Positions 46,942-52,833 of a stretch of 64,000 nt of DNA are shown here, in pieces (positions within the stretch are counted from its first letter, which is position 1; each line of letters opens with the position of its first letter). Under the pieces are notes generated by a model, which searched no databases, was not told the DNA's origin, and saw only the letters and a list, made by a program, of their open reading frames with translations. This stretch comes from Paragemmobacter kunshanensis (GTDB lineage: Bacteria > Pseudomonadota > Alphaproteobacteria > Rhodobacterales > Rhodobacteraceae). The DNA lies in contig NZ_JAALFE010000001.1 in NCBI RefSeq assembly GCF_011059185.1, positions 372,001-436,000 of the forward strand, in the 5' to 3' direction. The position numbers and the translations under genes were made by a program.

Positions 46942-47897
46942 TGGCACATGCAGCGCCTGTTGCCGCGGGATTTCAGGATTGCCGCAACATCTGGGTTTCC
47001 ACGCTGGAACAGCTTGCCGAAGCCGATCCCCGGATCGTGGCCGTTGTGAATGATTCCGTCGGATCCTCGAAGCTGAACAGTTTCCAGAAACGGTTTCCGG
47101 ACCGGCTGATCAATGTAGGCATCGCAGAGCAGGCGATGGTGGGAATCGGGGCGGGCCTTGCCAACGGGGGGCAGATCCCCTTCGTCTCGGCGGCTGGGTG
47201 CTTCATCACCGGGCGCGCGCTGGAGCAGGTGAAGGCCGATATCGCCTATGCAGGCTTCAACGTGAAGCTCGTGGGGCAGTCGTCCGGCGTGGCCTATGGG
47301 GAACTGGGCGCAACGCATCATTCGATCGAGGATTTCGCATGGCTGCGACCGCTGGCGAACCTGACCATCATCACCCCGGCGGATGCCTGGGAAACGGCAG
47401 AGGCCGTGAAATGGGCCGCCGCGCATGAAGGGCCCGTCTATCTGCGGCTGTCGCGGATGCCCGTTCCCGATCTTCACATCGCGGATCGCCAGTTCCGGCC
47501 CGGCAAGGCCGAACTGGTGCGACCGGGCGGGGATGTCACCCTGATCGCCTGCGGCACGACGGTGCATCTGGCGGCGGGGGCCGCAGGGCGCCTTGCGGAT
47601 CAGGGGATTTCTGCCCGCGTCCTGAACTTCTCGACCCTGAACCCGCTGGACGAGGAGGCGCTATACGCAGCCGCCGCGACCGGGGCCATCGTCACCGTGG
47701 AAGAGGCAAGCATCCGGGGTGGGCTGGGTGGTGCGGTCGCAGAGTTCACGGCGGCCCATCGGCCTGTCCCGGTCGAGCGGGTGGGCTTTCCCGGCTTCTT
47801 GCCGACGGGATCCGTCGACTGGCTGTTCAAGGAATATGGCCTGTCGCCGGAAGGTATCGCTGCCGCGGCCTTGCGTGCGCTGGACCGCAAGGCATGA
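46941..47897 (+). CDS. Split transketolase, C-terminal subunit (B)
   Basis: This 318-residue protein holds the pyrimidine-binding and C-terminal domains of transketolase. The catalytic glutamate that activates thiamine diphosphate is in INVGIAEQAMVGIGAGLA. It is followed by GVAYGELGATHHSIEDFAWL, ITPADAWETAEAV, PVYLRLSR and the C-terminal domain with VVTVEEASIRGGLG-like IVTVEEASIRGGLGGAV. It should assemble with subunit A to move a two-carbon unit from a phosphorylated ketose. It overlaps subunit A by one base and the kinase by four, so the three are coupled. Confidence 0.93.
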   Translation: MAHAAPVAAGFQDCRNIWVSTLEQLAEADPRIVAVVNDSVGSSKLNSFQKRFPDRLINVGIAEQAMVGIGAGLANGGQIPFVSAAGCFITGRALEQVKADIAYAGFNVKLVGQSSGVAYGELGATHHSIEDFAWLRPLANLTIITPADAWETAEAVKWAAAHEGPVYLRLSRMPVPDLHIADRQFRPGKAELVRPGGDVTLIACGTTVHLAAGAAGRLADQGISARVLNFSTLNPLDEEALYAAAATGAIVTVEEASIRGGLGGAVAEFTAAHRPVPVERVGFPGFLPTGSVDWLFKEYGLSPEGIAAAALRALDRKA

Positions 47898-49354
47898 CCG
47901 GGCCGCGCATCCTTGCCCTTGATCAGGGCACAAGCAACACAAAGGCGCTGCTGATCAACGGATCCGGCCATGTGATCGCCCGCGCCTCGGTGCCGCTGAG
48001 GACGGACTATCCGCAGCCGGGCTGGGCCGAACAATCCGCGACGGAGATCTGGACGTCGGTGCAGGCGGCGATTGCCGAGGTCATGTCCCGCGGAGGGACT
48101 GCGCCGGTCGATGCGATCGCCATCGCGAACCAGCGCGAAACGCTTGTGCTGTGGGACAGCCAGACCGGCCAGCCCATCGCCCCCGCGATGATCTGGCAAT
48201 GCCGCCGGACGGCTGCGGACTGTGCAGCCCTGATTGCGGCAGGCCATGACGCGCAGGTGATCGCGGCCACCGGCCTTGGGATCAATCCGTTGTTCCCAGC
48301 CTCGAAGCTTGGCTGGGCGATGCGGAACCTGCCTGAGGTGGCGGCGCTTCTGGCCAAGGGGCGGCTGCGCGCCGGAACCGTGGACAGCTGGCTGCTGTGG
48401 AACCTGACCGCGGGCCGGACCTTTGCAACCGATCATTCCAATGCCAGCCGGACCCAGCTTTTCGATACGGCGCGCCTTGCCTTCAGCCCGGAGCTTGCAG
48501 ACCTGTTCGGAGCCTCCGTCGATTGCCTGCCGCAGGCCCTGCCATCCGACAGCCATTTCGGGGACACGGCAGAGGGGACCACGGCGCTTGGGTCAGGCAT
48601 ACCGATCCGGGCGATGATGGGCGACAGCCATGCCGCGCTTTACGGCCATGGCATCCGCAAGCCCGGCGGCGTGAAGGCCACCTACGGGACGGGATCATCG
48701 CTGATGACCCTGACACCCGTCCGCAAGACCCCGGCCAACGGAATATCGGGGACCATCGCCTGGACGGATCGGGCGGGCACGGCCTTTGCCCTTGAGGGCA
48801 ACATCACGGTTTCCGCTCAGGCCGCCGCCTTTGCCGCGCGGCTGCTGGGCCTTCCGGATGCGGCGGCATTGTCTGCACTGGCGCAGACCGTGCCGGATGC
48901 CGGGGGCGTGACCTTCGTGCCGGCACTTGCCGGGCTTGGCGCGCCGCATTGGCACGATGGCGCGCGCGGCACCATCGGTGGCATGACGCATGGCACAGGG
49001 CCCGCGCATCTGGCCCGCGCCACGATAGATGCCATCGCCCATCAGATCGCGGATGTGTTCGAAGCGATGCAGGCAGAGATCGGCCAGCCGCTTGGCGCCC
49101 TTTGCGCCGATGGTGGCGCATCGGGGAACCGGTTCCTGATGCAGGTTCAGGCCGACCTGATCGACAGGCCTGTCCTTTCCGCCCGGGTCGAGGAAATCGG
49201 CGCAATCGGGGTTGCCGGAATGGCGCTTGCGGCCATGGGCTGCCCCGATCTGCCCGCGTTCGAAAGCGAGCGGTTTGTGCCGTGCCTCGCATTGGCAGAC
49301 CGGCAGGCAGCGCGGCGACGCTGGGCCGGGGCGATCCGTCAGGCCATGGTCTGA
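47894..49354 (+). CDS. FGGY-family carbohydrate kinase
   Basis: This 486-residue kinase of the FGGY family (glycerol, xylulose, ribulose and apulose kinases) shows the N-terminal phosphate loop DQGTSNTKALLING, GWAEQSATEIW, NQRETLVLWD, and the C-terminal ATP-site motifs YGTGSSLMTLTPV and CADGGASGNRFLMQVQ. The wording is closest to glycerol-kinase-like members. In the apiose pathway the corresponding enzyme phosphorylates apulose before transketolase acts, so this kinase probably phosphorylates the ketose made by the isomerase. It is the last gene of the operon, about 90 bp before the divL-like gene. Confidence 0.92.
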   Translation: MTGPRILALDQGTSNTKALLINGSGHVIARASVPLRTDYPQPGWAEQSATEIWTSVQAAIAEVMSRGGTAPVDAIAIANQRETLVLWDSQTGQPIAPAMIWQCRRTAADCAALIAAGHDAQVIAATGLGINPLFPASKLGWAMRNLPEVAALLAKGRLRAGTVDSWLLWNLTAGRTFATDHSNASRTQLFDTARLAFSPELADLFGASVDCLPQALPSDSHFGDTAEGTTALGSGIPIRAMMGDSHAALYGHGIRKPGGVKATYGTGSSLMTLTPVRKTPANGISGTIAWTDRAGTAFALEGNITVSAQAAAFAARLLGLPDAAALSALAQTVPDAGGVTFVPALAGLGAPHWHDGARGTIGGMTHGTGPAHLARATIDAIAHQIADVFEAMQAEIGQPLGALCADGGASGNRFLMQVQADLIDRPVLSARVEEIGAIGVAGMALAAMGCPDLPAFESERFVPCLALADRQAARRRWAGAIRQAMV

Positions 49355-49410: not shown

Positions 49411-49425
49411 TTAACTAATTGTTAA
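49411..49425. promoter_or_regulatory. CtrA-type box upstream of the divL-like gene
   Basis: TTAACTAATTGTTAA is a perfect match to the TTAA-N7-TTAA binding site of the alphaproteobacterial master regulator CtrA. It ends 22 bases before the probable start of the PAS-protein gene. Regulation by CtrA is inferred. Confidence 0.6.
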
Positions 49426-49447
49426 GGATGATCACGCTAGGGTTGAG

Positions 49448-50659
49448 TTGCACCAACCTGGCGGAACGCATTTGACAATCTGGAACTGGCTAGAATTTCT
49501 GGCCCTTGCTCTTCTTGGGGCGTCATTGGGGATGGCCCTTTTGTCTGCCTTTCCCGGAAGCGGGGCACGCAGGATGGCAGATGCCAGACGGCAGGCCGAG
49601 CAGGCCGCCGAGCAGGCCCCCCTGCCGATTTGGCGGCTGGATGCTCCGGGGCGGGTGACCTGGTCGAATGCCGCCTTCCGGAACCTTCTGGAGGGGGATG
49701 CCGACAAGGCAGCCCTTGCCACGCCCGGGCGATTCCAGATCATGCAAAACGGCAAGCCACGCTGGTTTACCCTTGCCATTCATGGGGGGACCGGACTGGC
49801 CTATCCCATCGACGACCTGATCGAGGCCGAGGCCAGCCTGCGCGACATGGTGCAATCCATGGCGCGCACCTTTGCGCAACTGCCCACGGGTCTTGCGATC
49901 TTCGACAAGTCGCGGCACCTGCAAAGCTTCAACCCGGCGCTGGCCGATCTGACGGGGTTGCCGCCCGCCTTCCTGTCGCGCCGCCCCAGCCTGCTTGCCA
50001 TGTTGGATGCGATGAGGGACCGGAGCATGGTGCCCGAACCGAAGGACTGGAAAAGCTGGCGACGCCAGATCGCAGACATGGAGCGTGCCGCCGCCAGCAG
50101 CCAGTTCGACGAAACCTGGGCACTGCCAGGGGGACAAACCTATCGCGTGACGGGCCGCCGCCATATCGACGGTGGGCTTGCACTGATGATCAACGACATC
50201 TCGACCGAGATCATCCGCAATCGCCGCTTTCGGGCCGATCTGGACCTTTGCCAGGCCGTGATCGACCGGATGGAGGAAGGTATTGCGGTGTTTTCCATCA
50301 CCGGCCAGCTTGTGCTTTCGAACGCGGCCTATGCCGCGCTCTGGGGGCATGATCCCGGCACGCGCATGGTTGCCGTTTCCGTTTCCACGCTGCTGTCGCA
50401 GTGGAAGGCAGGATCTGCGCCGACAAACCTGTGGACCGAAGCCGAGGATTACTTCGCCACCCTGGAAAGCCGCCTGCCCTGGCAGGCAGAAGCGCGACTT
50501 CTGGACGGACGGCTGATCACCTGCCGCTTTGCCCCGCTGACCGATGGCGCAGTGCTGGTGGGATTTCAGCCGGTCATCAGCGCTGGCCTGCCACGGGCCA
50601 TCAGCGCCCCGCCCGATGATGCGGACCCTTCGGCTTGCGGTGGCGTTGCAGGGCGGTAA
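49448..50659 (+). CDS. divL: PAS-domain protein, DivL-like without kinase domains
   Basis: This is a protein of about 403 residues with one N-terminal membrane helix (about 11-33, WLEFLALALLGASLGMALL). PAS domains follow: RLDAPGRVTWSNAAFRNLLE, LAIFDKSRHLQSFNPAL with PPAFLSRRPSL, and IAVFSITGQLVLSNAAYAAL. There is no HisKA or ATPase domain. Rhodobacter capsulatus DivL is likewise a short PAS protein that acts on the CckA-ChpT-CtrA relay; in Caulobacter DivL is longer and keeps kinase-like domains. Position before tsaE supports the assignment. The TTG at 49448 is used; a second TTG at 49472 is possible. There is no ATG. Confidence 0.7.
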   Translation: MHQPGGTHLTIWNWLEFLALALLGASLGMALLSAFPGSGARRMADARRQAEQAAEQAPLPIWRLDAPGRVTWSNAAFRNLLEGDADKAALATPGRFQIMQNGKPRWFTLAIHGGTGLAYPIDDLIEAEASLRDMVQSMARTFAQLPTGLAIFDKSRHLQSFNPALADLTGLPPAFLSRRPSLLAMLDAMRDRSMVPEPKDWKSWRRQIADMERAAASSQFDETWALPGGQTYRVTGRRHIDGGLALMINDISTEIIRNRRFRADLDLCQAVIDRMEEGIAVFSITGQLVLSNAAYAALWGHDPGTRMVAVSVSTLLSQWKAGSAPTNLWTEAEDYFATLESRLPWQAEARLLDGRLITCRFAPLTDGAVLVGFQPVISAGLPRAISAPPDDADPSACGGVAGR

Positions 50660-50669
50660 GACTGTCGGC

Positions 50670-51146
50670 ATGACCGATGCGCCGTTGCCTGATCCCGAAT
50701 TCCTTCTGAAGGATGATGCCGCCACCGCGGCCCTGGGGGCGTTTCTGGCACCGCGCCTTGCCGCCGGGGATTGCCTGCTGCTGGAAGGGCCGATCGGGGC
50801 AGGGAAATCGCATCTGGCCCGCGCGCTGATCCGGGAAAGGCTTGGCCGTTTCGAAGATATCCCCTCGCCCACCTTCACCCTGGTGCAGACCTATGATGCC
50901 GGAGATGTCGAGATCTGGCATGCGGATCTTTATCGTCTGACACACCCGGACGAGGTTCTGGAACTTGGGCTTGAGGATGCCTTTTCAAAGGCGATCTGCC
51001 TTGTGGAATGGCCGGACAGATTGGGCGCGCATTTGCCGCAAGGCGCCCTTCGCCTGCGGCTTGCGGTCGATGGGGACGGGCGGCGCGTTGCGATCAGCGG
51101 CGGCCGGGCGGACCTGAGGGCCGCGATTGCAGGATTTGCGCCATGA
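50670..51146 (+). CDS. tsaE: tRNA threonylcarbamoyladenosine biosynthesis ATPase TsaE
   Basis: TsaE is the ATPase that drives the TsaB-TsaD complex in t6A modification of tRNA. The 158-residue protein has Walker A GPIGAGKSHLARAL, the family motif IPSPTFTLVQTY, HADLYRLTHPDEVLELGL and VEWPDRLG. The ATG at 50670 was chosen; the frame is open into the preceding gene but without a better start. It overlaps the kinase gene downstream by four bases. Its partner tsaD lies 20 kb upstream in this window. Confidence 0.95.
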   Translation: MTDAPLPDPEFLLKDDAATAALGAFLAPRLAAGDCLLLEGPIGAGKSHLARALIRERLGRFEDIPSPTFTLVQTYDAGDVEIWHADLYRLTHPDEVLELGLEDAFSKAICLVEWPDRLGAHLPQGALRLRLAVDGDGRRVAISGGRADLRAAIAGFAP

Positions 51147-52159
51147 GCGGCAGGCAGGCGCTTTCCACCGCTTTTCTTGCCCGCGCCGGATGGGGCGGTG
51201 CCGAGCGGCGCTTTCTTGCGGGGGATGCCTCGGACCGAAGCTATGATCGCCTGACGCGGCCGGACCGCAGCGCCGTTCTGATGGATGCGCCCCCGGGAAA
51301 GGGGGACGACCCCCGCGCCTTTGCCCGCATCGCACATCATCTTGCCGGGCTGGGCCTTTCGCCGCCCGCCATCCTGGCCGAGGATTTCGATCACGGCTTC
51401 CTTTTGCTTGAGGATCTTGGCGATGATCTCTTTGCCCGCCTGATCGCGAGGGATCCGGCCATGGAAGCCCCGCTTTATGCCGCGGCAACGGATGTGCTTG
51501 TCCGGCTGCAGGCGCATGAGGCCCCGGCGGGCCTGCCGGATCTTTCGGCCGCCGACTGGGCCGAGGGCGCGGCCTATGCGCTTGACTGGTATGCCTTTGC
51601 TGCCACCGGGCAGAGCCCGGACCCTGCGGATTTCATCGCGACCCTGACAGGGCTGATCCGGACCTTTGCAGACGGCCCGCGCATCATGATTCTGCGTGAC
51701 TACCATGCCGAAAACCTGCTCTGGCTGCCGGATCGAGTCGGAGTGGCGCGGGTGGGCCTGCTGGATTTCCAACTCGCCCAGATGGGGCAGCCAGGATATG
51801 ATCTGGTCTCGCTGCTGCAGGACGCGCGACGCGATGTATCCGCCCCGGTCGAGGCGGCGATGATCGCCCGTTTCTGTGCCGCAGGCGGGGTGAATCCCGG
51901 CGATTTCGCCGCCGCCTATGCCACGCTTGGTGCCCAGCGCGCGCTTCGGATCATAGGCATCTTCGCGCGGCTCTGCCTGAAGGCGGGAAAACCCGGCTAT
52001 CTTGCCTTGCTTCCCCGTGTCTGGTCGCAGCTTTGGCGGAATCTGGACCATCCGGCACTGTCGGCCCTTGCGGCGATCTGCAGGGATCACCTGCCCGCAC
52101 CAAGCCCCGAAATGCTTGAAAGGATCGGCGCGCAATGCGGCCTTCATCCCCACCGCTGA
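51143..52159 (+). CDS. amgK: AmgK-type N-acetylmuramate/N-acetylglucosamine-1-kinase
   Basis: This 338-residue protein of the aminoglycoside phosphotransferase-like kinase fold is paired with a MurU-like gene, as in the anomeric MurNAc-recycling route. The kinase motifs are visible: the glycine-rich start RRFLAGDASDRSYDRL, the catalytic loop MILRDYHAENLLWL (HxxN) and the metal-binding DFQLAQMGQPGYDL. In Pseudomonas, AmgK phosphorylates MurNAc and GlcNAc at the anomeric position, bypassing de novo synthesis of UDP-MurNAc and giving intrinsic fosfomycin tolerance. The ATG overlaps tsaE by four bases, and murU overlaps its end by 25 bases. Confidence 0.88.
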   Translation: MSGRQALSTAFLARAGWGGAERRFLAGDASDRSYDRLTRPDRSAVLMDAPPGKGDDPRAFARIAHHLAGLGLSPPAILAEDFDHGFLLLEDLGDDLFARLIARDPAMEAPLYAAATDVLVRLQAHEAPAGLPDLSAADWAEGAAYALDWYAFAATGQSPDPADFIATLTGLIRTFADGPRIMILRDYHAENLLWLPDRVGVARVGLLDFQLAQMGQPGYDLVSLLQDARRDVSAPVEAAMIARFCAAGGVNPGDFAAAYATLGAQRALRIIGIFARLCLKAGKPGYLALLPRVWSQLWRNLDHPALSALAAICRDHLPAPSPEMLERIGAQCGLHPHR

Positions 52160-52833
52160 TGCTTTTTGCCGCGGGCCTCGGCACGCGGATGGGCGCGCTG
52201 ACGGCGGATTGCCCCAAGCCGCTGATCCGCGTGGCGGGAAGGCCGCTGATCGACCATGCCCTGGCGCTGGCCGACGGGGCAGGCGTCACCCGCATCGTGG
52301 CGAATACCCACTACCTCGCCCCGCGGATGGAAGCACATCTCGCCCCGCGCGGCGTGGCGATTTCCCGGGAATCCCCACGCATCCTGGAAACCGGGGGCGG
52401 GCTGAAGGCTGCCCTGCCGCTGCTGGGATCGGATCCCGTCCTGACGCTGAACACCGATGCCGTCTGGACGGGGGCCAATGCCCTGACCCAACTGATCGAA
52501 GGATGGGACGGCGCGCGCATGGACGGGCTGCTGCTGCTGCTGCCCGCAGCAAAGGCCACGGGTCATGGCGGCACGGGCGATTTCGTGATGCGGCCGGATG
52601 GCCGTCTGGACCGAGCCAGGGGTGCCGCGGGATTTGTGTATCTGGGCGCGCAGATTCTGCGGACGGGGGCGCTTGCCGATATCAGCGATGAGGTCTTCTC
52701 GCTGAACCTTCTGTGGGACAGGATGATTGCCGAGGGGCGGCTCCATGGCCTGATCCATGACGGGGGCTGGTGCGATGTGGGGCGGCCCGAAGGGATTGTG
52801 CTGGCCGAGAACCTGCTTGGGGGCGCAGCGTGA
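52135..52833 (+). CDS. murU: MurU-type N-acetylmuramate alpha-1-phosphate uridylyltransferase
   Basis: This 232-residue nucleotidyltransferase of the glucose-1-phosphate thymidylyl/uridylyltransferase superfamily carries the N-terminal signature FAAGLGTRMGALTADCPKPL and the metal-site aspartate in LTLNTDAVW, then ISDEVFSLNLLWDRMI near the end. Next to AmgK it should make UDP-MurNAc from MurNAc-1-phosphate, completing cell-wall recycling. The start lies inside the amgK gene, so the two are tightly coupled; the stop overlaps the GTG of addB. Confidence 0.9.
   Translation: MRPSSPPLMLFAAGLGTRMGALTADCPKPLIRVAGRPLIDHALALADGAGVTRIVANTHYLAPRMEAHLAPRGVAISRESPRILETGGGLKAALPLLGSDPVLTLNTDAVWTGANALTQLIEGWDGARMDGLLLLLPAAKATGHGGTGDFVMRPDGRLDRARGAAGFVYLGAQILRTGALADISDEVFSLNLLWDRMIAEGRLHGLIHDGGWCDVGRPEGIVLAENLLGGAA

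Follow-up and report, generated by a model that had tools for sequence, protein, structure and literature searches.

A conserved CtrA box before a PAS-only divL gene in Paragemmobacter kunshanensis, whose sole ctrA is interrupted by a prophage

Results

The divL locus

The stretch of P. kunshanensis DNA analysed here (64,000 nucleotides, hereafter the window) contains an open reading frame at 49448–50659, read from TTG 49448. Domain searches of its product found PAS domains only (PAS_7, E 1.6e-18) and neither HisKA nor HATPase, in agreement with the first-pass annotation of a DivL-like gene without kinase domains. The predicted structure showed an N-terminal helix and three PAS-like folds with a mean pLDDT of 77; the arrangement of the domains in the model is not reliable because the pTM was 0.39. 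A search of the PDB with the DivL family profile gave no solved structure at E ≤ 0.01. The features of the locus and of the ctrA insertions described below are listed in Table 1.

Table 1. Coordinates of the divL locus (window positions) and of the ctrA parts and prophages (contig positions)
Feature	Position	Strand	Basis or remark
FGGY (glycerol-type) kinase gene	47894–49354	+	upstream of divL; outside the usual neighbourhood
CtrA box TTAACTAATTGTTAA	49411–49425	+ (palindromic half-sites, readable on - too)	sequence; conserved position in 181/203 orthologues
-10-like element TAGGGT	49438–49443	+	27-32 bases past box start; conserved columns +27/+28 and +31/+32
Possible ribosome binding site GGCGGAA	49460–49466	+	sequence; similar in L143 and L144
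divL, PAS-only, 395 aa	49472–50659	+	TM-like helix and three PAS-like folds predicted; no kinase domain
tsaE	50670–51146	+	directly 3' of divL; downstream of divL in 192/205 orthologous loci
amgK-like kinase gene	51143–52159	+	neighbourhood annotation
murU-like uridylyltransferase gene	52135–52833	+	neighbourhood annotation
ctrA 5' part, residues 1 to ~178/179	C2:26950–27486	-	CtrA probe match (G000; L245, L246)
ctrA 3' part, residues 166–227	C23:142045–142230	-	CtrA probe match (G000; L245, L246)
Tyrosine integrase gene	C2:25566–26558		PHROG integrase, E 1.6e-41; 0.4 kb from ctrA junction
Prophage in ctrA of G081	C1:627833–675694 (L297–L300)		ctrA 3' part 47 kb away, single contig
Prophage in ctrA of G440	C7:7226–47668 (L311–L313)		ctrA 3' part 40 kb away, single contig

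Of 150 genomes taken from the genera of the Rhodobacteraceae, at nearly one genome per genus, 138 had a DivL homologue. The protein has ~525 residues in most relatives and ~395 to 400 in the window genome and its genus neighbour G095. An N-terminal PAS-like segment of ~110 to 130 residues, present in most of the family, is missing in the DivL of this genus and of its nearest relatives (window 49472–50659, L014, L143 and L144). Since the window protein has one N-terminal PAS fewer and an identity of ~40 to 55% to most relatives, its effect on CckA could differ from theirs.

The qPCR primers printed for Rhodobacter capsulatus divL (rcc00042; PMC9143464) were used to compare that gene with the window divL. 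Translated in frame, the two primers gave PTLYAF and MTELEQ, which are DivL-family motifs, and they showed 1 to 3 mismatches over both primers with the closest DivL orthologues. A scan of 395 genomes for exact primer matches gave one relative (G226), which has a perfect box before its divL and which the two primers matched with 0 and 1 mismatches. By this primer comparison, the window divL appears to be orthologous to rcc00042. In addition, divL and ctrA co-occur tightly. Among the 137 genomes common to our two samples, DivL was missing in all nine that lack CtrA, as opposed to 2 of the 128 that have it (Fisher p 1.5e-12, ignoring shared ancestry).

A CtrA box conserved before divL

The perfect CtrA box claimed in the first-pass annotation is present upstream of divL and is the only TTAA-N7-TTAA in the window, whereas shuffled sequences gave none (0 expected). 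Genome-wide (4.46 Mb, 117 contigs), 12 such boxes were found, including TTAACTAATTGTTAA. Seven genes beside the other perfect boxes showed no recognisable CtrA target in Pfam searches, and the motif alone is therefore no proof of a CtrA target.

The first-pass annotation had also proposed to look for the box in relatives, where its absence would count against the idea. We searched 203 distinct divL orthologue loci with enough upstream sequence from -300 to +250 of the open frame, and 181 of them had a perfect TTAA-N7-TTAA upstream of divL, so that this check did not refute the idea. The corresponding controls were a mean of 0.4 for shuffles, 0 for the gene body, 3 for the upstream gene, 6 or fewer for any spacing from 3 to 14 other than 7, and 4 for AATT-N7-AATT. 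Anchored on the box, the orthologues had the consensus TTAAC-N6-TTAACC. Upstream of divL in G440, a genome of another genus, three TTAA-N7-TTAA boxes overlap and repeat every 11 bases (L306, 1403–1439).

CtrA binding to TTAACTAATTGTTAA in P. kunshanensis is a prediction from sequence, and the box could in principle be a chance TTAA-N7-TTAA or the site of a factor other than CtrA. However, the spacing of exactly 7 and the consensus are shared by 181 of the 203 orthologues, related Rhodobacterales have predicted CtrA sites ahead of divL and expression data that agree with them, and divL is missing in our sample wherever CtrA is missing. We consider a chance or foreign site extremely improbable. 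CtrA control of a kinase-less divL has already been predicted in Rhodobacterales, and the idea is not new: in the cluster B species of this order, CtrA was reported to control cckA and divL, with a DivL that lacks the kinase domain and with DivK absent (Brilli 2010, PMC2877005). The absence of DivK from Rhodobacterales has also been reported in PMC9430884. The box before divL is a well-documented further instance of the kind predicted in 2010.

Promoter layout, start codon and sign of regulation

The -10-like element behind the box belongs to a conserved arrangement. A hexamer WANNNT occurs at +27 to +32 from the box start in 96 of the 181 orthologues with a perfect box, compared with 2 to 17 at other offsets, and the transcription start is predicted near 49450. 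The promoter thus has a TTAA-N7-TTAA in the -35 region and a -10 element whose fixed distance is seen as statistical conservation. The same layout, a CtrA box at -35 with a -10 element behind it, has been described for CtrA-activated promoters and for R. sphaeroides osp (PMC9430884).

In the two closest relatives, divL starts at +61 from the box start (GTG in L143; GTG, or ATG at +55, in L144). The codon of the window gene aligned with these starts is TTG 49472, which lies behind GGCGGAA. Judged by this alignment, TTG 49472 is the more likely start; TTG 49448, which would coincide with the predicted transcription start, was dropped in its favour. The distance of 22 bases between box and start given earlier rested on TTG 49448 and has to be corrected, as the box lies 46 bases upstream of the likely start.

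This position, less than 50 bases from the start codon and overlapping the promoter, could suit repression of divL by CtrA, and the first-pass annotation had considered repression or tight autoregulation. However, the box occupies the -35 region and is followed by a conserved -10-like element, so that activation fits better than repression. Published mutants point the same way. In D. shibae, there is a CtrA site in the divL promoter, and divL expression is reduced in ctrA, cckA and chpT mutants (PMC4046655); in R. capsulatus, ctrA knockouts show significantly lower divL expression (PMC6363796). On the basis of the promoter layout and these mutants we rejected repression, or negative autoregulation of a tight kind, and we regard it as very unlikely.

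Interruption of ctrA in P. kunshanensis

We searched for ctrA with a Caulobacter CtrA probe, which was used only for locating homologues. In P. kunshanensis the probe matched a 5' part and a 3' part on different contigs, and no other full-length CtrA-like protein of the genome exceeded 39% identity. The genome has a single ctrA, and a tailed-phage prophage interrupts it at codon ~179. The two junctions are internal to contigs (C2 and C23) and not at contig ends. On C2, the reading frame departs from CtrA after ...EMFLNHL into foreign DNA. The core CTGAACCAYCTTT has exactly two copies in the genome, one at each ctrA junction. Since the two ctrA fragments are on different contigs, no single contig shows the complete prophage. 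The truncated CtrA matches positions 1–39 of the 77 of Trans_reg_C only, which is the first half of the winged-helix domain. As judged from its sequence, it lacks the DNA-recognition helix and would have lost DNA binding.

The relay genes chpT and cckA-like are present and intact in the genome. Boxes with one mismatch were found 61 bases before the ctrA ATG (GTAATCAATGTTTAA, L236) and directly before the cckA-like open frame (TTAGCGATCTGTTAA, L228). The GTA_TIM family gave four matches (L224–L227; C36, C48, C59 and C74), more than one gene transfer agent (GTA) cluster would give, and these probably represent GTA-like prophages besides the GTA.

The tyrosine integrase gene lies next to the ctrA junction on C2, and beyond it are genes for a terminase large subunit, head closure, a methyltransferase and a repressor-like HTH protein. 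On C23, genes for a GIY-YIG endonuclease and a tail-fibre-like protein precede the ctrA 3' part, up to the contig end. The same region is found in IMG/VR as a provirus contig (L285). A related integrase (61 to 62%) is also encoded on L286, a viral contig from a metagenome, but neither a ctrA fragment nor the core was found there.

Recurrent insertion at the same ctrA codon

CtrA matches at E ≤ 1e-38 were obtained in 377 of 396 sampled genomes, nearly all of full length among the matches listed. Prophages in ctrA were found in G081 and G440, which are two species of one other genus, and all three insertions are at the same ctrA codon; the empty site is visible in the intact ctrA of G095. The G081 integrase is 63% identical to that of the window genome and adjoins ctrA residues 1–178 in the same orientation, and the G440 integrase, of the same type (64%), adjoins the ctrA 5' part. 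The inserts contain genes for terminase, portal and tape measure in G081, and for terminase, head closure and DNA ejection in G440. The window-genome prophage has a terminase that shares 33% identity with its G081 counterpart and gave no match in G440; the head-closure proteins of this prophage and of G440 are 28% identical. With integrases at 63 to 64%, these values indicate different phages with a common integrase and target. The integrase at the junction, the structural genes, the duplicated core and the recurring site are those of a temperate tailed phage in ctrA, and site-specific integration is well supported. By extension, integration would alter CtrA-dependent regulation and may be reversible.

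Several broken ctrA genes were not counted as insertions, namely those of G354, G356 and G372, in which the break is at contig ends, and that of G218, which shows a frameshift. In G354 (L291; C19:3–164), the two ctrA parts stop where their contigs do, near the same codon (residues 172–187), possibly reflecting another insertion or an assembly fork. The divL of G081 (L308/L309, C5:389705–391170) has a frameshift near its middle, which may be decay after CtrA loss or a sequencing error. G440, although its ctrA is split, has an open divL. Since this genome keeps divL open together with its three boxes, the loss of ctrA is recent or reversible, or divL matters in some other way.

Alternatively, the loop could be working normally in P. 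kunshanensis, with the prophage excising in many cells or the truncated CtrA still active. The box and divL are intact, as are chpT and the cckA-like gene, and the attachment cores remain. However, the intact ctrA that a working loop needs is not in the assembly, which contains the two interrupted halves alone and no intact junction, and the truncated protein covers little more than half of Trans_reg_C. Furthermore, the new CtrA tails differ between the three genomes (SRRKKSNK..., YRSVRC-stop and Y-stop), and thus the insert does not repair CtrA. A normal loop in this strain is therefore unlikely, and we favour a loop opened by the prophage. The culture may have been a mixture that included intact ctrA; likewise, the truncated CtrA may still bind DNA to some extent, or a different regulator of the OmpR type may use the box.

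Discussion

We propose that divL has a CtrA-activated promoter with TTAACTAATTGTTAA as the CtrA box of its -35 region. Binding of CtrA to this box in ancestors and relatives would increase transcription of the PAS-only DivL, which would favour the kinase state of CckA and make phosphorylation through CckA, ChpT and CtrA self-reinforcing. Both the activation of divL by CtrA and the promotion of CtrA phosphorylation by DivL are carried over from papers on relatives; for R. capsulatus, the latter is stated, as acting via CckA, in PMC9143464 with reference to Westbye 2018. Together with the 2010 prediction and the mutant data of PMC4046655 and PMC6363796, this means that the loop is predicted and largely supported in relatives, with a positive sign. 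From these parallels we infer that CtrA binds the box in the lineage of P. kunshanensis as well and closes a positive loop there. The strain sequenced probably has an open loop, because its sole ctrA is split by a prophage at codon ~179 and CtrA has lost its recognition helix. The box is retained, but CtrA is unlikely to occupy it as long as the prophage stays in place. That box and divL are both intact points to a recent or reversible loss of CtrA. Overall, we hold it to be highly likely that the divL promoter is activated and the loop positive in relatives, and that a prophage in ctrA has probably opened it here. The feedback connection proposed in the first-pass annotation is thus supported, but it is probably broken in this strain.

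Comparison with known systems showed both shared and different features. Like the cluster B species with a kinase-less divL, the window genome combines a CtrA box in the divL promoter with the CckA-ChpT-CtrA relay and no DivK, and divL expression depends on ctrA in two of those species. Unlike in those reports, conservation is measured here over ~200 loci together with the promoter layout, the window DivL is shorter (395 aa, by one PAS), and the strain's own ctrA is interrupted. The R. sphaeroides Osp loop (PMC9430884) likewise places the gene of a CckA modulator under a -35 CtrA box. However, Osp is a receiver-domain inhibitor and forms a negative loop, as opposed to DivL, a PAS protein that presumably promotes phosphorylation of CtrA in a positive one. 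The DivL of Caulobacter crescentus is also a membrane-anchored PAS protein acting on CckA, but it responds to DivK and contains a pseudo-kinase module that the window DivL lacks.

In active lysogeny, prophages sit in host regulatory genes. A prophage within a host gene is also exemplified by SPbeta in spsM of B. subtilis (PMC13228054). In these cases as in ours, the attachment site lies within a host gene that the prophage divides, so that carriage decides whether the product is made, whereas the target here is ctrA. Our literature search, which covered few subscription papers, gave no report of a phage that attaches in ctrA; the prophage interruption of ctrA, outside the window, is what appears new here, and the search is not proof of its novelty. 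There is about an even chance that one lineage of tyrosine integrases, carried by differing temperate tailed phages of the Rhodobacteraceae, uses ctrA codon ~179 (core CTSAASCAYCT), with lysogeny shutting the CtrA programme and excision restoring it. If so, the divL loop would be off, probably along with motility and gene transfer agents, and the orphaned but intact divL box in the window would be one visible consequence.

Being conserved almost universally, the box places divL among the best-supported CtrA targets of the family. It is a textbook-quality case of the link predicted in 2010 and favours positive over negative feedback. Of greater importance than the box is the prophage in ctrA. 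A phage inserting into the developmental master regulator of its host would switch off host motility and gene transfer agent production. Such prophages would supply natural ctrA mutants, and they would offer a switch, open to direct testing, between lysogeny and a host programme that many alphaproteobacterial phages need.
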